Virus record (IMG/VR): IMGVR_UViG_3300008216_000069
Location: 1 to 25,204 of that record
Source of the DNA: a virus
Strand: one strand, 5' to 3'
DNA length: 25,204 bases
Position 1 is the first letter of the stretch. Each line of letters opens with the position of its first letter. Below are positions 3,358 through 24,752 of this stretch, one piece after another. Under the pieces are notes generated by a model, which saw only the letters and a program-made list of their open reading frames with translations, did not search any database and was not told where the DNA came from. A program made the translations under genes and the position numbers.

Positions 3358-4277
3358 TGGTTGAAGAATATATCAACAGGGAGGCTCCTGACATAGAGGC
3401 ACGTAAGCTTGGCTTAATGGATACAGCTAAAGCGTTAGCTGAACAAAAACTTACTCTTCCTCAATATCAACTCGCGGGTTTCACCACGCCTGAACAAGAC
3501 GCTTTTCTAAAAGCACAGCAAGGCATCGGAGGCTATGTACCTTACCTTAACTTAGCGGGACAGGGAATCGCCCAGGGACAGGCAACCACGCAAGCGGCTC
3601 AGAATTTACTAGGAGGCATTACAGGCGCTCCTACCACGACACAATTACAGCCTTACCTTAACCCCTTCCAACAGCAAGTCATTGACCAGACGATGCAGGA
3701 ATTGGACAAGAGAGGGGCGACAGCACAGCAAAATTTAGCAGGACAAGCGCAACAAGCAGGCGCTTTTGGAGGATCACGGTTTGGTGTCCAAGGAGCTGAA
3801 CTACAAAGAGGATTACAAGACGCACGTGCGCAAGCACTCACTCAATTGAACGCCCAAAACTACGCACAAGCGATGGGGGGATATCAAAATCAGATGGAAC
3901 GCCAACGATTGGCGGGACTTGGAATCGGCGCCCTTGGTCAGCAACAAGCTGGATTGGGAGGACAATATGCAGGTTTGGGACAAATGGAACAACAACTAGC
4001 GGGACAAGACATTCAGTCCCTACTTGGTATCGGAGGCATGCAACGTCAACGAGAACAACAACTTTTGGATATGCAACGGCAAAATGCGTTGCAAACGATG
4101 TATGAACCATATCAGCGATTGGGTTTCTATGGTGATATCTTGGCACAAGCGCCAACTTCACAACAAGTCATCCCGACAGCTACATCGCCTAGTATCAGTC
4201 CGTGGCAACAAGCTATTGGAACAGGTATTGGCGCTTTAGCGGGCATCGCCGGGGCGAGAAGAATGGGAGTAGTATAA
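3357..4277 (+). CDS. Gln/Gly-rich virion protein, probable internal/ejection protein
   Basis: 306 residues starting at the ATG that shares bases with the previous stop (TAATG). The composition is strongly biased to Gln, Gly, Ala and Leu, with long predicted helices: QPYLNPFQQQVIDQTMQELD (98-117) then GAFGGSRFGVQGAELQRGLQ (135-154), a central QQQAGLGGQYAGLGQMEQQL stretch (195-214), and YEPYQRLGFYGDILAQAP (249-266). A hydrophobic Gly/Ala helix GTGIGALAGIAG lies near the C-terminus (288-299). The YLxPxxxxVxDxTxxxL plus GGSR pattern and the YQRLGF/L...APT segment recur in marine phage virion proteins of this position. No enzymatic motif is visible; an elongated helical ejection or tail-tube-associated protein is the best reading. 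Confidence 0.65.
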   Translation: MVEEYINREAPDIEARKLGLMDTAKALAEQKLTLPQYQLAGFTTPEQDAFLKAQQGIGGYVPYLNLAGQGIAQGQATTQAAQNLLGGITGAPTTTQLQPYLNPFQQQVIDQTMQELDKRGATAQQNLAGQAQQAGAFGGSRFGVQGAELQRGLQDARAQALTQLNAQNYAQAMGGYQNQMERQRLAGLGIGALGQQQAGLGGQYAGLGQMEQQLAGQDIQSLLGIGGMQRQREQQLLDMQRQNALQTMYEPYQRLGFYGDILAQAPTSQQVIPTATSPSISPWQQAIGTGIGALAGIAGARRMGVV

Positions 4278-7204
4278 TGGCAGTTTTAAACAGACAAATG
4301 TTTCGTCAACCGTTTCCCGTGGTTCGTCGTATGGCGGGTACACCTCAAGAAGGGGAAGTTACGGTTGAAGATTATATTGATAAGGGCTACGACACGTATG
4401 AATATACGGCGGATCAGGCAAAAGATAAGGGGGGAATTTTGCAGTGGCTCAAGAAACAAGGAAAAAAAGTAGGCGATTTCATGGAGACTGGTTGGGCGGA
4501 TCGTGAAGACCTATTGTTTATCGGCAATGAATATTTTGATCCCGATGATCCGAACTTCAGGCTCTTTATTGAAAATAATTATATGCAAGAGGGTGACAGT
4601 TTCATTGAGGGCATCGAAAAGTTCAGGGAGTTTGTCGAGACATCAAGCGGCAGAGGGGATGACACGAAAACATTAATAGAAGCGCAAAAGTTTATTGTTC
4701 CAAGACAAGCAGGTTCCCCACCTATGGGAGAGATTAGTGATAGATTTGGAGAACAAAGAATAAATGAATTAATGGAAGTGCCATTAAGTGATACTGGTGA
4801 CTTGTCCAAACAATGGGATCGTGATGAAGGTGTTTCTCAGTTTACGATGGAAGACTTTATAAAACTAGAAGCACCAAATTATCATACGGAAGGAGTTTTA
4901 AAATTAGTGCAGGCATTTGGCACTCCAGATGAAATAGAAACAATGATAGATATTACAACAAAAGTACTAAACAATCAAAGTACTAAAGAAGATCATAAAA
5001 TATCACGTACGCTATTAAATAAATATTTTGATAGAATAGGAGGTTTAGATAATTATCATAAAACGCATGATAGACTAAACAGAGAATGGGAATTCCGAGA
5101 AGAAGGAGGTTTTAAAAATCCTCATTTAAGACAAGCAGGATCTCCCATGCAAGGGGAGATAACACCACAGGAATCTAATTTATATTACGGCGATCAAGGC
5201 GAACAAGAATTGCATAGAGAACTAGTAAAAGTTGCCAACGGACAAATAACCAACCCACAAGAGATTCAAGCGATAATTACGGCGGCTATCGGAGAATTTG
5301 GTGAAGGTCATGTAATGGCTATAATAAAAGAAGGTGGAGCTCTTATGTCATCCGCAGAAGGACAATTTTCTGGGATGCCACATCAGGGCACAGGAATGGA
5401 TGGTCCTTATTGGAATCAGGCAGTCTCACGACAAATGGGATCACCTCCAATGGGTGAACAAGTGAATGCCAATAATGTTGGCATTATGGATGGTTTTGAA
5501 CAGGAACAAGTGGCGGAACAAGTGATGAGCAAAGGATCCGCAGCCAAAGATCAACTAGATCAGGCATCCACATATGATGAACTCATGCAAGCCATTCGTG
5601 GTGATAACCTCACGGAACATGACAGACGCCAGGAATTGGCGGGAATTGTTGGAGAGGATGATGCCGCTAGAACACCCGACAGTGTGTTGGCACTCGTTCA
5701 ACCTGTTATTCAAATGCTTACTCTGGAAGAATCACAGCAAGGAATTGGCGCAACGGATCAAGCGCAAGCGATGAACATACCGGTGGAACAAGAGGAAGTT
5801 GTCGGCATTCAAGAAACGATGGCGGCGAACGGAGGCCTCATTAGAAGATATAATATGGGTGGAATAGCAAACCTACGAGGCGGGGGACCCGTTCAATATT
5901 TCAATGAAGGAGATTCAGTCTTGGCGCAAAAGCATGCGCAATATTCACCCACTTACATGGGCATCGTTGATAAATACTTTGATCCCAAGCAAGCGGAGGC
6001 GGATGCGTTATTCGCCCTATCACGAGCAGGATTTAATTGGGGTCTAGGAGCTAGTCCTACCGAAGCGAGTGCAATGTTCTTTGATGAACTATCCAAAAAA
6101 GGAAGTAAACGCGCGGAAGAAGAACGAGCTTTAAGAATGAAAATGGATTTAAGTGCATTAAGTGCGGCTCAAGCTGAAATGCTCGCGGAGACGAAAGCCA
6201 AAAAGGAAAAAAGCAAACAGAAACAAAACCTGACGGTTGGGTTAAATAAGCAAACAGATGATTTCATTGCAAAAATTCTTGGAATCACTAAAATTGAAAA
6301 GACTAGAGTAGGACCTGATACTGATGAAGAGGAAGTAATTGATTGGGAAAAATTCTACAGGCTTTATCCTGAAGGAACCTCCCTACAGTGGAGTTGGGAT
6401 TGGACACAATTCTTCGGCAAAAAAGGATCGGCGATACGCTACGAGGGAGTGGATACGGATAAAGTTCCTGATGACAAAAAACACGGGGGCATCGTCCACC
6501 GTCAGGATGGAACACCTGAAAATGGTGAAGTTATAGATGAAATTTTTGTTCAAGAAGGAATGGCAACAGGAACGGAAAAAGATGACATCAATAAGATTGT
6601 CGCGCGGTCACAAGCGACATTAAAGGAATTACTGCGCATGAAAGAAATATTGGTCACCCACCCTGAAATAGGAGGGATGCCAGGATGGTTTTTAGAAACT
6701 TTCCAAGGACTGTTTACGATGATTGATCAAATTGATGATGCCTATATGGGGGATAAAATCTTTAGAAAAGAAGGAAAACTTTCAACAATGTTCAACAAGG
6801 CTGAAATTCAAGAAATACAAATGTTAAAAAATTCCATTGCGGCGGGCATAGCGGATTTAAGAAGTTTCAAGGGAACACGGCAGCCTACCGAAAAGCAGCA
6901 AGAACTTAGTTTAAAGGAAATTGATCCGACCGGTATGTTTGGAAGGGATGTTGCGATGCAAAAGGTAGACGCGGTGGCGGATAAAGTCGCAAGACTCGTA
7001 AAGGAATATGTCAAGGTTCTTACCACTAAAGAAGGCTCAACCGAGATTGATCAGACCGCGCTTCTAGGAAAATTTAACGACATTGATGCTTTTGTGGATT
7101 CAATTCACAACTTCGCCGTTAAAGAAGAAATGGATACTACTACGGGAAATACCTATTCTTTACAGGATTTAGAGGCAATAATAAACGCCACTGAAGGAGA
7201 TTAA
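4277..7204 (+). CDS. Large virion protein (975 aa) with five RxxG[ST]PxxGE motifs
   Basis: The open frame extends upstream to a GTG at 4202, but the ATG at 4277 is chosen because it makes the TAATG overlap used throughout this operon and gives a sensible N-terminus (MAVLNRQMFRQPF). The protein has an acidic, non-globular-looking first half punctuated by a motif R-x-x-G-[ST]-P-x-x-G-E at residues 18-27, 143-152, 285-294, 385-394 and 742-751. Around 519-545 is GGLIRRYNMGGIANLRGGGP, a glycine motif shared with neighbouring genes. Residues about 600-660 (EEERALRMKMDLSALSAAQA and following) are helical, likely coiled coil, and the C-terminal third is helix-rich. No catalytic motif is seen. Length and place between other virion genes suggest an internal virion or tail protein delivered with DNA; this is inference. 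Confidence 0.65.
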   Translation: MAVLNRQMFRQPFPVVRRMAGTPQEGEVTVEDYIDKGYDTYEYTADQAKDKGGILQWLKKQGKKVGDFMETGWADREDLLFIGNEYFDPDDPNFRLFIENNYMQEGDSFIEGIEKFREFVETSSGRGDDTKTLIEAQKFIVPRQAGSPPMGEISDRFGEQRINELMEVPLSDTGDLSKQWDRDEGVSQFTMEDFIKLEAPNYHTEGVLKLVQAFGTPDEIETMIDITTKVLNNQSTKEDHKISRTLLNKYFDRIGGLDNYHKTHDRLNREWEFREEGGFKNPHLRQAGSPMQGEITPQESNLYYGDQGEQELHRELVKVANGQITNPQEIQAIITAAIGEFGEGHVMAIIKEGGALMSSAEGQFSGMPHQGTGMDGPYWNQAVSRQMGSPPMGEQVNANNVGIMDGFEQEQVAEQVMSKGSAAKDQLDQASTYDELMQAIRGDNLTEHDRRQELAGIVGEDDAARTPDSVLALVQPVIQMLTLEESQQGIGATDQAQAMNIPVEQEEVVGIQETMAANGGLIRRYNMGGIANLRGGGPVQYFNEGDSVLAQKHAQYSPTYMGIVDKYFDPKQAEADALFALSRAGFNWGLGASPTEASAMFFDELSKKGSKRAEEERALRMKMDLSALSAAQAEMLAETKAKKEKSKQKQNLTVGLNKQTDDFIAKILGITKIEKTRVGPDTDEEEVIDWEKFYRLYPEGTSLQWSWDWTQFFGKKGSAIRYEGVDTDKVPDDKKHGGIVHRQDGTPENGEVIDEIFVQEGMATGTEKDDINKIVARSQATLKELLRMKEILVTHPEIGGMPGWFLETFQGLFTMIDQIDDAYMGDKIFRKEGKLSTMFNKAEIQEIQMLKNSIAAGIADLRSFKGTRQPTEKQQELSLKEIDPTGMFGRDVAMQKVDAVADKVARLVKEYVKVLTTKEGSTEIDQTALLGKFNDIDAFVDSIHNFAVKEEMDTTTGNTYSLQDLEAIINATEGD

Positions 7205-7206
7205 GA

Positions 7207-9936
7207 ATGGGATTTATCACAGTACCTGGAATTCCCTACGAAATTGAAATAAAGGGGGACAAGCCCGACAAGGATGAGGCTGCGCGCATCATAAAACTTG
7301 TTGATGCGTTTAAAAATAAAAAAGAAGCAGACAATCCTTTCACCGACGAAAAAATGCGTAAAGTCTACGAGACAAATGATCAGCAACTTATTGAAGCGGT
7401 AGAAAAAGCCAAGGAGACATGGGAAAAAACCGTAGGAGTAAATCTTTTAGAAGAATTTGGATTTGATGAAAATCTTCCAGAAGGATTGGCGGCTATTCCA
7501 TTTGTAGGCATAGATAGGGATGACGCCTTTATAATGGGGAGTGCTATGGGAAGCATCCCAGGATTAAAAGATCTTTTTAAACTTAAAAATATTAGAAAAC
7601 TTCCAACCAATCCCAAAGATCTTGTTCGTGTTTTTGGCAAGGCATGGTTTGGTGGCATATTCGGTTCGGTTACCGCGACACAAGCGTATGACATCGCCCA
7701 ATACTTAATAACGGGGAACGAAGATTGGAAACCCAATTTTGACCAAATGGGTCAAGATATGAAGGAGGCTATTTTTTGGGAAACCATAGGTCTTCTTTTA
7801 CCTGAGGCTGTTCCTAAATTGGCGAGAGCCACATTGGATTTCTCGGATCCCGCCATCATCAAGGCAAGAAATGTCGCCAAGGCTCTTGGCATTGAATTAG
7901 ATATCGCGGCACAATCAAAAATTGGCCAGCTTATTTTAAAACCTATGGGCATTCTGCCTTTCATGGGAGGTGGTCTGCGAAACTCCAAAGGCGTCAGAGT
8001 GAAAGACCTTAATAATTGGTTTGATAGTGTTTTACAAAGCATCGCCCCTACATCCAAGTTCACCGAACAGGGAATCAGCATCTTTAACGCGGGAACACGT
8101 AAATATAAGAATATGAAAGAACAAGTAAGTAAATTGTGGAAGGCGGCATATGATAATCACGCGATGTTGAGCGATCCCAATATCCTTAACACGACAATGA
8201 AAGGTGGTCTTCAAGAAACATTGGAGATTTTCACCAAGGGGGGAATCTTAGAGGAGTTCAGGGGTATTCCTGTCGATAAAAATGGAATTATAAAAAGTTT
8301 TGATGATATTGTAGAAAGCGGTTTTCTTAAAGACATCAACTTGGAAAGAATAGCGGATGACAAGCCTATCCGTGATTTCTTTAATACGATGAGAAAAATG
8401 CAAAAGAGCATCTTTGATCAAGGGGGGGATGTCTCCTATCAACAGGTGCGTACATGGAACGCCAATCTCCAGTCCTATTTCAATGATATCGTAGGCAAAG
8501 GAAAACTATATAACAAGGAGTTTACCAAAGTATTGACAGCATTAAAAAAATCTCTTGATCTTTCGGTGTTGCCCGATGCCGTTAATATTATGAAAATTGG
8601 GGACTCCGAATTAGCCAACAAAATTGCCCAGTCCCACAAGGATGCCAACACTTATACAAAAGCTTTTCATAATCTTTTCAATTCACCCGCGGCTAATAAA
8701 TTCAATGTCTTTGTAAAAAATATTTTTGGACCGGGTCTGGATGCAACTAAAAAAGATGTTGATATGATGTTAAAGGCCGTCTTAAAAATAGATTCACCCA
8801 CCACTTTAAGGCAATTAAAAGAAATCGTGGGACCTAAAGTCTTCAAGCAAATCGCTCAAAAATTTGTGGACGATGCAATGAGGGCTTCCATGGGAAAATT
8901 TGATGTAGGACTCTTGGGTTTAACTGATGTGGTAGGCAAGGGAAGTACTAAAAAAATAGACAAGATGATGCGCTTTGATCCAGGAACATTGGCTCAAAAA
9001 TTAGGTTTTGATCTTCGTAAGCCGACGGAACACGGATTACTACTGTTAAAAGAAGCCGGAATCGATCCAACATTAATGAAAAATATTATTGATATGGGGG
9101 TTTTTGAATCAGGCATAAAAATCGGTGATCCTTCAACTTACTTGATGAGGTCAGCGCAAATAAAAGGTATGCAGCCCTTCTTACAAGGATTGTTTAGATC
9201 AGGAACAGGTAGTGCAATGGCAGGAGGAGCTGGTTTAGTCGGCGTAGGTGCTGGTACGGCTCTACAAGGACTTTTTGCAATGATGATAGGACGGTATGGT
9301 TTAACGAAATTTTTAGGCAATCCTCGATTGGCGAAAGCCGCTAACACTATTTTTGATCCCGCAAGGCAAACAGCGATTTCAAAACTTCCTTTTATCAAGT
9401 TACCTCTGGGGCCACGTTTTTGGCAAAGAGCGGTTCAAGATCTTCTGGATCTGCACTTAAAAGAAAACCCAGAACAAAAAACAGGGGATTTTGAATTCCT
9501 TACTGAGTTTAAAGAGTCATTACATCCTGATTCCGTTGAATTTAGGATATTTGAAGAAATTCTGGATGATTTAGGTGTGGGTCCAATGAAACTAGACAAA
9601 CCTACAGTAGATCCTGCAAGTATTCATGAGCAAAACCTACAGCTACAAAAAAGACTATTAGAGGAAAAAGAAATAAAAGATGGGACTGAAGAGGTTATCT
9701 TGGATGAACAAACATTCCTGGACATTCCTCAAAACATTCCTGTTCCTAATCAAGAGTTTGCAATGGCGGATATTGTTCCCCCATTACCTAACCCTCAAGC
9801 AGATTCCGCAATAACTGGCGGTGTTGACCCATCCATCGTGGAACGGATGGAAAGTATGGGAATGCCGTTGTTCGCTAATGAAGGAGGAATTGCGTCCCTA
9901 ATGGAGCATAAAAAGCCCCACCAAATGGTGGCGTAA
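7207..9936 (+). CDS. Large helical virion protein (909 aa), probable ejection protein
   Basis: Starts at 7207 after a clear ribosome site (AAGGAG, 7194-7199). The N-terminus MGFITVPGIPYEIEIKG is followed by mostly helical sequence. Two hydrophobic segments stand out: FGKAWFGGIFGSVTATQAYD at about 144-163 and a Gly/Ala-rich stretch from about 666 to 700 (AMAGGAGLVGVGAGTALQGL then FAMMIG), the latter able to cross or insert in a membrane. The tail end has a Pro/Asn-rich linker (PLPNPQ) and finishes with NEGGIASLMEHKK, carrying the GGIASL motif at 893-898. Size and features resemble the large internal virion proteins of podoviruses that form a channel for DNA entry, but there is no lytic transglycosylase motif. 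Overlaps the next gene by TAATG. Confidence 0.6.
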   Translation: MGFITVPGIPYEIEIKGDKPDKDEAARIIKLVDAFKNKKEADNPFTDEKMRKVYETNDQQLIEAVEKAKETWEKTVGVNLLEEFGFDENLPEGLAAIPFVGIDRDDAFIMGSAMGSIPGLKDLFKLKNIRKLPTNPKDLVRVFGKAWFGGIFGSVTATQAYDIAQYLITGNEDWKPNFDQMGQDMKEAIFWETIGLLLPEAVPKLARATLDFSDPAIIKARNVAKALGIELDIAAQSKIGQLILKPMGILPFMGGGLRNSKGVRVKDLNNWFDSVLQSIAPTSKFTEQGISIFNAGTRKYKNMKEQVSKLWKAAYDNHAMLSDPNILNTTMKGGLQETLEIFTKGGILEEFRGIPVDKNGIIKSFDDIVESGFLKDINLERIADDKPIRDFFNTMRKMQKSIFDQGGDVSYQQVRTWNANLQSYFNDIVGKGKLYNKEFTKVLTALKKSLDLSVLPDAVNIMKIGDSELANKIAQSHKDANTYTKAFHNLFNSPAANKFNVFVKNIFGPGLDATKKDVDMMLKAVLKIDSPTTLRQLKEIVGPKVFKQIAQKFVDDAMRASMGKFDVGLLGLTDVVGKGSTKKIDKMMRFDPGTLAQKLGFDLRKPTEHGLLLLKEAGIDPTLMKNIIDMGVFESGIKIGDPSTYLMRSAQIKGMQPFLQGLFRSGTGSAMAGGAGLVGVGAGTALQGLFAMMIGRYGLTKFLGNPRLAKAANTIFDPARQTAISKLPFIKLPLGPRFWQRAVQDLLDLHLKENPEQKTGDFEFLTEFKESLHPDSVEFRIFEEILDDLGVGPMKLDKPTVDPASIHEQNLQLQKRLLEEKEIKDGTEEVILDEQTFLDIPQNIPVPNQEFAMADIVPPLPNPQADSAITGGVDPSIVERMESMGMPLFANEGGIASLMEHKKPHQMVA

Positions 9937-10964
9937 TGAGTAAAAAACACGAGAGGATTAAAGCTGAAACAGCACGAAGAATCGCCGCTGGAGATACAAG
10001 TGATTATGTCCAAAAATCAGCCAAACAGTATGGATTAACGGTTCCCACACGACAAACTTACAATCCCAATAAAGTATCACATACAATTAAAGAGGCTACA
10101 GGTCTGACTGGGAAAGACGCGTGGCGAGCTAATCAAGCTTTCAGGGCGCAAACAGCAAATAATCAAAGAATCCAGGCGCAAAACGCGAAACGAAGAGCGG
10201 TGGAAGAAGCATTTCACAGGCAAGGAAACGTAAATAGAAGTGACTTCACAGGCAAGGTGGAAGGTTCGGGTATTCTTGGCACAAACATAGGGGCAAAATA
10301 TTCAGGGAAACCAAAACTAAGAGAGGGACTAACCAGTGATGAATACCACAATTGGATGAGAAACTTATATGATATTAATCCTTCAATGATGGAACAACTT
10401 TTTCCGTGGGGAAGCGGAAAAACGGCAAGAAATATTGTGACAATGGCGACACCCGCAAAATACCTGGGGATAGGAGCTAAGTGGCTTAAAGATAAAACAA
10501 TGGATACTGCCAGCAACCTCAAAGATTTGGCAACAGAGTCCACTATGGTACAAAATATATCAGAAGACTGGAAGAATAGGAACAAAGGAAAAGGATTTAA
10601 AGGTTTTGTCGAAGATGCTTTAGCCACGGTGGGGATTGGAAACACCGAAAAAACCAATGAATTCATTGAAACACAAACTGACACCGATGGTGAGATTAAA
10701 ACCAATATGTTGGATATCAAAAGGGATAAGAAAAATACTTTAGACTCTCAAGCTTTGGATGAGTTAATAAACCAACGGGATAGCCTATGGCAACAGATCC
10801 AAGCGGGAAATAATTCTTCAGGATTATACTTACAATTTAAGGCTCTTGATAATGAGATACAGAAATCTTTAAATAAAGATCAAGGTAAATTACAAAATAT
10901 GAAAAAAGGGGGAATTGCTTCCTTGGCGACTGGAGGATTTAATAGGTTTAGGGGGTACGGATAA
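9936..10964 (+). CDS. Basic virion-type protein with C-terminal GGIASL
   Basis: 342 residues, start fused to the previous stop (TAATG). The first 100 residues are rich in Lys, Arg, Gln and Ala (KHERIKAETARRIAAGD, then AFRAQTANNQRIQAQNAKRR), helical and basic, suggesting nucleic acid or virion-core contact. The middle (about 125-235) is mixed, with SDEYHNWMRNLYDINPSMME and helical amphipathic stretches. A second helical section (SQALDELINQRDSLWQQIQA) precedes the C-terminus KKGGIASLATGGFNRFRGYG, whose GGIASL (325-330) matches motifs in the two preceding large proteins. I do not recognise a named family; virion protein is inferred from operon position and the shared motif. Confidence 0.55.
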   Translation: MSKKHERIKAETARRIAAGDTSDYVQKSAKQYGLTVPTRQTYNPNKVSHTIKEATGLTGKDAWRANQAFRAQTANNQRIQAQNAKRRAVEEAFHRQGNVNRSDFTGKVEGSGILGTNIGAKYSGKPKLREGLTSDEYHNWMRNLYDINPSMMEQLFPWGSGKTARNIVTMATPAKYLGIGAKWLKDKTMDTASNLKDLATESTMVQNISEDWKNRNKGKGFKGFVEDALATVGIGNTEKTNEFIETQTDTDGEIKTNMLDIKRDKKNTLDSQALDELINQRDSLWQQIQAGNNSSGLYLQFKALDNEIQKSLNKDQGKLQNMKKGGIASLATGGFNRFRGYG

Positions 10965-21549: not shown

Positions 21550-22101
21550 ATGACCAGTGAAAAACATTTAAAACTGCTGCTGCCATACTATGTTAAAGAA
21601 TATCGTAACATTATTTCTCCAGAGCTGGCTCAGGAGATCATAGCACAGCCTGATTTAGAATTCTTTCCCGCTACTGCGGGAGGGGGTAAAGCTAGTGAGG
21701 CGCGCCGTTGTTATGTCAAACCAATTGAATCAAAATTCAAGAAGAAAATTGCCACTATTATTGAGGATATCTTTAAATCATACATTCAGGAGTTTAAATT
21801 CTTTGATAGTTTAAAAATGGAAAAGACTGGATATGATCATCTTCTCTACAAGGGAGAGGAATCTAATGAATACAAAGAGCATGTTGATCATTCCCAATTC
21901 AACAAGCCTCGAATTCTAAGTTGCTCCCTTCTTCTTAATGACGACTACGAGGGAGGAAATTTTAGTTTTTTCGGAGGGGAATATGTGATCTCCAGGCTGG
22001 CCTGTAGCGCCATCGTGTTTCCCAGCAATCCTTGCTTTCCTCATTCAATCACTCCTATTTACCAAGGGGATCGTCACTCCATCATCACCTGGGTCCACTG
22101 A
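21550..22101 (+). CDS. 2OG-Fe(II) oxygenase (prolyl-4-hydroxylase-like)
   Basis: 183 residues, AGGAG four bases before the ATG. The catalytic double-stranded beta-helix is clear: the HxD motif in YKEHVDHSQFN (H111, D113), ILSCSLLLNDDYEGGNFSFF (122-141), distal H165 in NPCFPHSITP, and R175 in YQGDRHSIITWVH for 2-oxoglutarate. The spacing fits the P4H-like group (PF13640). Such enzymes hydroxylate proline, other residues, bases or small molecules; the substrate is unknown. It is translationally coupled (TGATG) to the four-cysteine U32-like gene. Distinct from the oxygenase at 1514-2251: sequence, length and motif spacing differ. Confidence 0.88.
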   Translation: MTSEKHLKLLLPYYVKEYRNIISPELAQEIIAQPDLEFFPATAGGGKASEARRCYVKPIESKFKKKIATIIEDIFKSYIQEFKFFDSLKMEKTGYDHLLYKGEESNEYKEHVDHSQFNKPRILSCSLLLNDDYEGGNFSFFGGEYVISRLACSAIVFPSNPCFPHSITPIYQGDRHSIITWVH

Positions 22102-23075
22102 TGAAAACAAATTATCTTCCATACGGGAAAGACATATTAAATCCAGAGTGGCCCGAAGCCACCTGGGATGTGGGGACGTTGTTTGTTCATGATGATAATA
22201 TTATAAATTTTTATGATACAATAAAAAAAAGATTTGGTTTTCCTTTATCTATTAAATCAGTATTTGGTTGCTATAATGTTATGTGGAGCGGAGGAAGATC
22301 CTCATTTGGCGTAGCTCCGACAGTTCATACTGGAGGCTGGACACCAGAAGTTATAATCAAGGAGTATAACAAGAGAGGGATAGATGTTACTTATACTTTT
22401 TCAAATCCTTTACTCAAAGAAAAACATCTTACGGATCCAAGCTCTAATTATTTGTTGGATTTACTGGCAAAACAAAAATATGAAGGCAACGCTGTTACTA
22501 TCACTTGTGATGTTTTATCGGATTACATCAGGAAGATGTATCCTAATTTAAAACAAAAAGCATCGATTGTTAAATCAACAATGGAGATGCCGAGGAGGAG
22601 GACGTTTGAATATTATGACAATCTGTTTGAAAAATATGATCTGGTCTACCTTCATCCTGATGATAATTTCAATCTTAAATTATTGAAAAAAATAGCCGCG
22701 TCTGGAAAAGTTGGCAGTTATACACTTCTTATAAACGAAAACTGTGCGAGAAACTGCACTATACGAAACAGTCATTATGAGGAACAGTCAAAACCGGTAA
22801 TTGATGGGTGGCACGGAATGTTCAGTTTTACTGATGTAGATCAGATCCATAGTCCCGAACATCCCAATAGCATATGTGAAAGACACACAAAACCACAAAT
22901 GAAATCATGCACTCTTTCTCATTCTGAGTTTAAAGAAATCTATGATCTGGGCTTCAGAAGATTTAAGCTGCAAGGAAGAGATTCTCCTTGGACTAATATG
23001 TTATTTGATCTGGCTTTCTGGTCGGTTGAACAAGACGCCATGGCATATAAAATATCCCACTACCCTCATTTATAA
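22101..23075 (+). CDS. Four-cysteine protein resembling peptidase U32/UbiU-UbiV family
   Basis: 324 residues; start ATG 22101 shares bases with the oxygenase stop, while a longer frame from a TTG at 22032 would overlap it by 70 bases and is rejected. The pattern is alternating strands and helices of a TIM barrel: IDVTYTFSNPLL (94-105), NAVTITCDVL (130-139), ASIVKSTMEM (154-163), YDLVYLHPDDNFNLKLLKKI (179-198), GSYTLLINENCARNC (205-219) and RRFKLQGRD (286-294). The cysteines C215, C219, C259 and C270 are placed like the iron-sulfur ligands of U32 proteins (UbiU, UbiV, RlhA), which hydroxylate ubiquinone precursors or rRNA without O2. No peptidase residues are identified. Function is inference from fold pattern and linkage to an oxygenase. 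Confidence 0.6.
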   Translation: MKTNYLPYGKDILNPEWPEATWDVGTLFVHDDNIINFYDTIKKRFGFPLSIKSVFGCYNVMWSGGRSSFGVAPTVHTGGWTPEVIIKEYNKRGIDVTYTFSNPLLKEKHLTDPSSNYLLDLLAKQKYEGNAVTITCDVLSDYIRKMYPNLKQKASIVKSTMEMPRRRTFEYYDNLFEKYDLVYLHPDDNFNLKLLKKIAASGKVGSYTLLINENCARNCTIRNSHYEEQSKPVIDGWHGMFSFTDVDQIHSPEHPNSICERHTKPQMKSCTLSHSEFKEIYDLGFRRFKLQGRDSPWTNMLFDLAFWSVEQDAMAYKISHYPHL

Positions 23076-23290
23076 TGAAGGCCGTGAACATTTTTTCACA
23101 GCATGTGGAAGAGATAAAAAAGGCTCTACCTTATTATGATCAACTTTTTGATTGGATGGATAAGCAGAAACCTTTTTCTTTTGCTGGAAAACAGGAAGTC
23201 TCTCCATATCCCTTCTTGTCATATCCGCTAGTATCTCAATTCCTGTTTTCATATTTTTACAGTATTTACCCCTTAACAAAAATACAATAA
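23075..23290 (+). CDS. Small unknown phage protein (71 aa)
   Basis: ATG overlaps the preceding stop (TAATG). The first 45 residues are helical (IFSQHVEEIKKALPYYDQLF then DWMDKQKPFSFAG) and the C-terminal part is rich in aromatic and hydrophobic residues (PYPFLSYPLVSQFLFSYFYS), which could be a membrane-associated helix. No family is recognised and no ribosome site is obvious, so translation probably depends on coupling. It ends the operon that starts with the helicase; a promoter-like sequence follows. Confidence 0.45.
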   Translation: MKAVNIFSQHVEEIKKALPYYDQLFDWMDKQKPFSFAGKQEVSPYPFLSYPLVSQFLFSYFYSIYPLTKIQ

Positions 23291-23355: not shown

Positions 23356-23913
23356 ATGAATATTATTTCTGGTTTTTGTGCAACATTATTATTACTGTGT
23401 CAGACCATTCTTAGTGATTTGGATTTTAAATATGATAATCAGGATGAATTTGTTAAAGGCATTGTGGAATGTACACAGGCATTTAATGCGGTCATTCCAC
23501 CACAGCAGCGTGTGGTGGTTGTCATTAGTATGGCACAAGCTGCATTGGAATCCAATTGGGGTAAGTCACGGTTTGCTAAACTGGGTAATAACTTCTATGG
23601 TATTATTGAGTCAAATCTCGAAAAGCCTCACATAACTGCCCTGGAAAATCCTGATGTTCATCTCAAAGTCTATGACAAAAGATGCTACAGTGTAGCGGAT
23701 TATCTTACATTGCTAAACACAAGTCCTCTTTTTAAGGAATACCGTGATGAACGTGCTAAAGCATTTGTAAGTGGAAGGATGAATCTTGAACCCTTAATAA
23801 TGTCTCTTCATGTATTTGCGGTGGATCCTTTTTATACCTATAAAATCAAGGATACTGTCAAATATTTACATAGAACTTATCCAAATATTTTTCACTTGAC
23901 AACGGATGCCTAA
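23356..23913 (+). CDS. Secreted glucosaminidase-type lysin (GH73/Bax-like)
   Basis: 185 residues. The N-terminus MNIISGFCATLLLLCQTILS is a Sec signal or signal-anchor. The catalytic core reads SMAQAALESNWGKSRFAKLG then NNFYGI, the ALES-xxGxS-xxA-xxxN-xFG(I) signature of the mannosyl-glycoprotein endo-beta-N-acetylglucosaminidase family (PF01832, Bax-like), with E65 the expected acid. Later segments YDKRCYSVADYLTLL and ALH-like MSLHVFAVDPFYTYKIKD also fit the family. It should cut peptidoglycan glycan in the periplasm at lysis; a signal-arrest-release mode would remove the need for a large holin. The lysin lies 12 kb from the holin-like gene and in another operon. Weak ribosome site; has its own promoter-like element. 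Confidence 0.85.
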   Translation: MNIISGFCATLLLLCQTILSDLDFKYDNQDEFVKGIVECTQAFNAVIPPQQRVVVVISMAQAALESNWGKSRFAKLGNNFYGIIESNLEKPHITALENPDVHLKVYDKRCYSVADYLTLLNTSPLFKEYRDERAKAFVSGRMNLEPLIMSLHVFAVDPFYTYKIKDTVKYLHRTYPNIFHLTTDA

Positions 23914-23972: not shown

Positions 23973-24752
23973 ATGAAAACGATATCTTCAAAAATTTTAC
24001 AAACTACTGACTATGCGCAGTTTAAAACTATTCGGGGAAACCGAGAAATTAATGAAGCGCATTTAAAAAACCTTGTTAGGAGCATTGAAGAAAATGGTTA
24101 TATTCCATGCCCTATCATTATTAATGAAAAATTTGGCGTCATCGATGGTCAGCATCGTATTGAAGCGGCAAAAATATTGAAACTTCCTATTCACTATTAC
24201 ATCTTAAATGGTGCTAATATTAGAGAAGTAACGATTGTTAATCAAAACAGGAAAAACTGGGGTTTCACACAATGGATGAACCGTTATGCTGATTACAATT
24301 TCCAGGAATATAAAATCTATAAGCATTTCTATGAAGTGTGGGGATTTGATCACTGGAGTACCATCTTTTTACTGTGCCGTACCAAGGGAGTGAGAGGACG
24401 AGGAAGCCTTAAAAAAGCTTTTGAAACTGGAGCTCTGAAAATTGAAACGATGGAAGAAGGAAAAAAATTCGCCCGCCGTATTATGGATGTAAAACCTTTT
24501 TACGCCAATTACAAGCGTCGCGCCTTCATCCAGGCGATGATCCGTGTTTTTCATGACAGCCGCTACAATCACAGGACATTCTTGAAAAAACTTGGATTGG
24601 TGAGAGATCGTCTTTATGATTGCTCAACAGTAGGTCTTTATCTTCAACGCATTGATGAAGTCATGAACTACAGTACTCCAAAAAATCAACGAGTAAACTT
24701 TTACTACCAATGGGGTGATCCTGATTCCATTTTTCAAGTGAAAGCGGCATAA
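23973..24752 (+). CDS. ParB/Srx-like N-terminal domain protein
   Basis: 259 residues; GAGAGG five bases before ATG. The first 95 residues match the ParB N-terminal/sulfiredoxin-like fold: EINEAHLKNLVRSIEENGYI (25-44), PIIINEKFGVIDGQHRIEAA (47-66) with the G-x-H-R signature G59-Q-H61-R62, and IHYYILNGANIREVTIVN. In chromosomal ParB this box binds CTP. The remainder (about 90-259) is helical, with GFTQWMNRYADYNFQEYKIY and repeated basic helices (KKFARRIMDVKPFYANYKRR), without a recognisable helix-turn-helix. Stand-alone phage ParB-like proteins may act as nucleases, modulators of DNA modification or partition factors; which is unknown. Preceded by a 59-base gap after the lysin. Confidence 0.85.
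   Translation: MKTISSKILQTTDYAQFKTIRGNREINEAHLKNLVRSIEENGYIPCPIIINEKFGVIDGQHRIEAAKILKLPIHYYILNGANIREVTIVNQNRKNWGFTQWMNRYADYNFQEYKIYKHFYEVWGFDHWSTIFLLCRTKGVRGRGSLKKAFETGALKIETMEEGKKFARRIMDVKPFYANYKRRAFIQAMIRVFHDSRYNHRTFLKKLGLVRDRLYDCSTVGLYLQRIDEVMNYSTPKNQRVNFYYQWGDPDSIFQVKAA

Follow-up and report, generated by a model that had tools for sequence, protein, structure and literature searches.

We consider it rather likely that the 324-residue protein encoded directly behind a 2OG-Fe(II) oxygenase gene in a 25,204-nt stretch of viral DNA (IMG/VR record IMGVR_UViG_3300008216_000069, positions 1–25,204; hereafter the window) is a small, divergent U32-type Fe-S enzyme with a TIM-barrel fold, and that its gene is exchangeable cargo behind a resident oxygenase. 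The gene is real and under purifying selection, and it goes unrecognised by the usual databases. What is new here is an unannotated U32 variant carried as phage cargo. The coordinates of the features discussed are given in Table 1.

Table 1. Features of the window at and around the oxygenase and the U32-like gene
Feature	Position	Strand	Details
2OG-Fe(II) oxygenase, PKHD/phrog_61 type	21550..22101	+	183 aa; PF13640 2.5e-10, phrog_61 1.4e-26
Segment 100% identical in DNA to contig L001, from the oxygenase's last bases on	22096..23123	+	1,028 bp
Divergent U32-superfamily protein, predicted TIM barrel	22101..23075	+	324 aa; C57, C215, C219, C259, K289-G292-R293
Codons for C215 to C219, the invariant CX3C motif	22743..22757	+	
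Codons of KLQGR (residues 289–293), equivalent of the U32 KIEGR motif	22965..22979	+	
Remnant of a gene for a polysaccharide pyruvyl transferase	23075..23290	+	probable start (MKA) joined to the final ~33 codons (FSQHVEEIKKALPYYDQLFDWMDKQKPFSFAGK); the original stop is missing
Endolysin-like gene, conserved in sister phages on the right of the cargo slot	23356..23913	+	

On its own, the window protein gave no U32 match at cut-off in Pfam, NCBIfam or PHROGs, and a PDB sequence search with the family alignment returned no useful match. Its relatives are found in marine viral contigs (59–72% identity, plus an identical copy in contig L001), in a Dehalococcoidia contig (L010, 64%) and, at about 22–29% identity, at hundreds of chromosomal loci in Clostridia. 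Among the family members, 46 of 69 matched PF01136 (best 1.7e-7), and Chloroflexota intermediates found with the window protein as query scored 42–58 bits against a cut-off of 22.4; homology to PF01136 is reached through these relatives, not from the window protein alone. Profile–profile comparison of the window family with UbiU, UbiV, RlhA and TrhP of E. coli gave an E value of 5.6e-6. The preliminary description had read a TIM-barrel-like, U32-like order of strands and helices from the translation, and structure prediction bears this out: the AlphaFold model of the window protein is a barrel (pLDDT 83, pTM 0.86), and among solved structures it is closest to the U32 protein 5D88 (Mk0906), at Z 14.6, the runner-up reaching 10.9. 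This match came from a second look with VIA-align, plain Foldseek having put unrelated barrels first. 5D88 again came first (Z 16.9 versus 11.8 for the next) when a Clostridia relative was modelled (pLDDT 94), and the best viral match of both models was a 'peptidase' of Escherichia phage OLB35. The window protein shares with PF01136/5D88 the barrel, for which 5D88 is the best solved match by a wide margin, and a KxxGR motif at the last strand, but it has only 11–14% identity, lies under the Pfam cut-off and spaces its cysteines differently. Taken together, the modelled fold match to 5D88, the PF01136-matching relatives and the profile E value place the 324-residue protein in the U32 superfamily as a very divergent member, outside the described U32 oxidase families.

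The dN/dS of the U32-like gene is about 0.18 (against L002 and L092), which indicates purifying selection. A maximum-likelihood tree groups the sequences from marine phages and L010 in one clade with full support, and a Chloroflexota protein (L123) on a long branch is the sister of this clade; in L123 the gene adjoins a HemN-type radical SAM gene and a methyltransferase gene. The L010 copy (4977–5960) lies amid chromosomal-looking genes of a metagenome-assembled contig, yet within the phage clade, so that either transfer from a phage or wrong binning would account for it. The clostridial proteins (Lachnospiraceae, Oscillospiraceae) share with the window protein three cysteines, W62-GGR66 and KxxGR, and differ from it in keeping E208, in mostly lacking C57 and in often being encoded as two adjacent copies. 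Two copies were present at about 45 of 79 Clostridia loci, usually in tandem (for example L011, 3961–5948, and L041, 3876–5843), an arrangement that recalls the UbiU–UbiV pair. Three human-gut 'phage' records (L006–L008) were excluded from the phage evidence because their DNA looks bacterial, with a DNA polymerase I gene and two-component regulator and transporter genes.

Motifs were counted in 140 homologues, 15 of them marine and 125 bacterial. C215, C219 and C259 are invariant in all 140, as are K289, G292 and R293 of KxxGR and likewise W62, G64, G65, R66, K158, R222 and Y226; H225 is nearly so. A KIEGR-type motif is present at the end of the barrel of the window protein (FKLQGR). The canonical U32 cysteine motif, CX6CX15CX3/4C (PMC6747719), is absent from it, the spacing being CX3C-X39-C; C215 and C219 would correspond to the first two canonical cysteines by their distance from the preceding strand, but to the last two by profile alignment. 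Residue 208, in a register deduced from the spacing to the first cysteine, is the positional counterpart of the glutamate that is essential in TrhP (E162) and RlhA (E161) (PMC6599085). It is Glu in all 125 bacterial homologues, Thr in the window and Ile or Thr in 11 of the 15 marine members. Judged from these residues, the active site of the window protein is altered, and because the essential glutamate is replaced and the canonical cysteine motif is absent, its function is not simply transferable from TrhP or RlhA. Nor does the protein carry the radical SAM motif CX3CX2C: R222, not a cysteine, follows C215–C219, and PF04055 has no match in it.

Four cysteines had been proposed as U32-like ligands in the preliminary description. 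Three of them, C215, C219 and C259, stand on the counts above, whereas the fourth, C270, is Cys in only 10 of the 15 marine sequences, bacteria mostly having Thr or Ala there, and the spacing is not the canonical one. A different residue, C57, which that description had passed over, is Cys in every marine sequence (15/15) and in 15 of the 125 bacterial ones. It lies just past barrel strand 1 (residues 51–55 in the AlphaFold model) and recalls C39 of UbiV, a ligand far upstream of the others in that protein (PMC6747719). Because C57 is invariant in the marine clade and has this UbiV-like upstream position, the ligand set of the clade is likely to be C57, C215, C219 and C259.

RlhA, TrhP and UbiUV have been linked to O2-independent hydroxylation, and Fe-S clusters have been shown for UbiU and UbiV (PMC6747719, PMC6599085, PMC11574389). 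The U32 proteins recently characterised are Fe-S oxidases (PMC11574389); their targets are RNA bases or ubiquinone precursors, on which they act without O2, and prephenate has been implicated as the oxygen source (PMC11574389, PMC6599085). The window protein has the U32 barrel and conserved cysteines in common with UbiU/UbiV, TrhP and RlhA, and a KIEGR-like motif in common with UbiU, TrhP and RlhA; besides the cysteine spacing and the replaced glutamate, it differs from them in being the product of a single gene in a phage. From the fold, the cysteines and KxxGR we infer that the phage protein is most likely an Fe-S cluster protein that carries out a redox reaction. C215, C219 and C259, probably joined by C57 in the marine clade, would be the ligands of a 4Fe-4S cluster on the barrel's C-terminal face. 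By analogy with RlhA, TrhP and UbiU/V the reaction may be an O2-independent oxidation or hydroxylation, with a small molecule, nucleotide or RNA of host or phage as the putative target, and the protein might work independently of the adjoining oxygenase. A fuller proposal, that of a one-subunit U32 enzyme with the variant cluster site C57/C215/C219/C259, traded as a cassette and using nucleic acid or nucleotide precursors in the infected cell as substrates for O2-independent hydroxylation or a related oxidation, is tentative and, taken whole, somewhat unlikely.

The neighbouring oxygenase is a normal member of the phrog_61 2OG-Fe(II) oxygenases of marine phages, with no notable difference from them. 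Its PF13640 match is over the Pfam cut-off, and the HxD...H...R site that the preliminary description had called intact is so: H111, D113, H165 and R175, the arginine for 2OG, are all invariant among 18 aligned oxygenases. A further 2OG-Fe(II) oxygenase, which belongs to a different type (phrog_81, 6.9e-28), is encoded at 1514–2251 on the minus strand of the window. The oxygenase and the U32-like gene had also been described as fused by TGATG. The stop TGA and the start ATG do have one base in common at 22,101, but the genes overlap and are not fused. One-base overlaps occur at four further same-strand junctions between likely genes of the window, plus one at 23,075; such an overlap being ordinary in this DNA, it is by itself weak information. 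The U32-like gene is probably read through translational coupling at TGATG.

Eleven contigs, the window included, carry this oxygenase, which in the ten others is 84–88% identical to that of the window, and the slot behind it was seen in three states. The U32-like gene occupies it in two contigs only, the window and L001. Four contigs (L130, L132, L135 and L137) have a polysaccharide pyruvyl transferase gene (PF04230) there, entered through an identical TGATG junction, and in the remaining five (L129, L131, L133, L134 and L136) the oxygenase is joined directly to the downstream sequence with no gene between. In most sister contigs a DNA polymerase gene precedes the oxygenase and an endolysin gene follows. 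The window and L001 are identical throughout the 1,028-bp segment, shortly beyond which the L001 contig ends, and their oxygenases are about 83% identical in DNA and 85% in protein; on sequence grounds, the segment is a recently transferred cassette. The ORF that follows the U32-like gene ends in the last ~33 residues of the transferase and probably opens with the transferase's own start, which points to a deleted transferase gene, intact copies of which are present in L130 and L135. In the simplest history, the TGATG junction would have been the point at which the U32-like gene came into the slot, the transferase would have decayed, and the cassette would lately have moved between phages.

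Over a wider set, the U32-like gene was present at none of 79 other oxygenase loci (nine sister contigs included, L001 left out), and a homologue of the window oxygenase was present in none of 11 other U32-bearing phage records, many of which are fragments. The U32-like gene has other neighbours there: it lies between UvsY-like and UvsW-like genes (our own naming) in L097–L105, is followed by a radical SAM gene in L003–L005, and adjoins a class II tRNA synthetase-like gene and a methyltransferase gene in L096. Tryptophan-halogenase-like and Methyltransf_24 genes also follow it in L004 (about 6975–10394) and L005. In the records tested by family, 2OG genes lie 2–80 kb from the U32-like gene or are missing. 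By its distribution, the U32-like gene is exchangeable cargo and not a fixed partner of the oxygenase. Elsewhere in the window, a ParB-like protein is encoded at 23973–24752 (phrog_12305, 4.5e-23), and small ORFs that are ParB-like by eye lie near the corresponding slot in L002 and L137; two very large ORFs at 4202–9936 (1000 and 909 aa) have no PHROGs match.

The preliminary description had taken the two genes for a functional pair whose enzymes act on one substrate, either as O2-dependent and O2-independent hydroxylases or in two steps. Such a pair would suit the TGATG overlap and its identical copy in L001 next to a different oxygenase allele, and it would have a parallel in E. coli, where tRNA U34 is hydroxylated both by an O2-dependent route (TrhO) and by a U32 route (TrhP) (PMC6599085). 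The adjacency is confined, however, to the one identical, transferred segment; the nine other sister contigs hold the transferase, behind the same TGATG, or nothing, and the co-occurrence survey, fragmentary as many of its U32-bearing records are, came out essentially against a pair, as did the distant or missing 2OG genes. The idea is already weakened by the swap pattern, and we now regard it as quite improbable. A segment identical to L001 between divergent flanks could also result from misassembly, and L001 ends soon past it; but the window and L001 share the junction while differing in their oxygenase alleles, and the window's transferase relic, to the right of it, matches sister phages, so we give an assembly chimera hardly any credence.

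Two further readings concern the chemistry. The statement of the preliminary description that it knew of no such phage system needs a qualification: our literature search found no U32 genes reported as phage auxiliary metabolic genes, but the genomes of cultured T4-like phages do have annotated 'peptidase' genes of the U32 type that are related to this one. The profile of the window family matches the U32 proteins of Mosigvirus, Marfavirus and Thanatos with an E value of 5.8e-17 over 233 columns, and in the alignment of the RB69-type/Chloroflexota branch C215, C219, C259 and KxxGR are in register, corresponding to NxxC...C...C and FKxxGR of the RB69p050/phrog_5757 'peptidase'. The Mosigvirus, Marfavirus and Thanatos genes lie in the stretch from DNA polymerase to UvsX, with dCMP hydroxymethylase or sugar-activation genes as neighbours. 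RB69p050, which by position and annotation appears to be the RB69-type gene compared here, is listed with a presumed role in arabinosyl-hmdCMP synthesis (PMC8056088), and cytosine in Thanatos DNA bears a pentose (PMC12838424). A gene of this RB69-type module in a phage of E. coli K-12, Escherichia phage ChristianSchoenbein (L247, 3986–5146; bas46_0144), encodes a U32 'peptidase' that is an Fe-S candidate. On these likenesses, the substrates of the phage U32 branch might be sugar nucleotides or bases destined for DNA hypermodification, which is what has been proposed for RB69p050 in arabinosyl-hydroxymethylcytosine phages. The RB69-type proteins are nevertheless a different subfamily, which single-sequence BLAST reached only at E 0.005–0.12, with an extra cysteine-rich C-terminal part of their own and a DNA-sugar module with dCMP hydroxymethylase, neither of which the window has; moreover, the hundreds of Clostridia homologues are chromosomal. 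Since thymidylate synthase/dCMP hydroxymethylase (PF00303) was not found in the window or in six U32-bearing marine records (some of them fragments, one of 134 kb), a role in DNA modification is a possibility, and one that we consider unlikely. Loss of redox chemistry, with a remaining role in binding, in structure or, true to the family name, as a peptidase, would fit the missing equivalent of TrhP E162, the non-canonical cysteines and the 'peptidase' label on related phage genes. It seems improbable to us, given that the cysteines and KxxGR are invariant and H225 nearly so, that the gene is under purifying selection, and that the characterised U32 proteins are Fe-S oxidases.

The reading that we prefer, a divergent U32 enzyme carried as cargo, brings to light an unannotated branch of U32 proteins that connects anaerobic Clostridia of the gut with marine phages and with the U32 'peptidase' found in RB69-like phages. 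It also corrects an attractive but mistaken conclusion: where sister phages exchange the neighbour, the overlap of two phage genes is no proof that they work as a pair. Because RB69-like phages can be cultivated on E. coli, the role of phage U32 proteins is directly testable, and with it that of an uncharacterised gene of the arabinosyl-hydroxymethylcytosine module.
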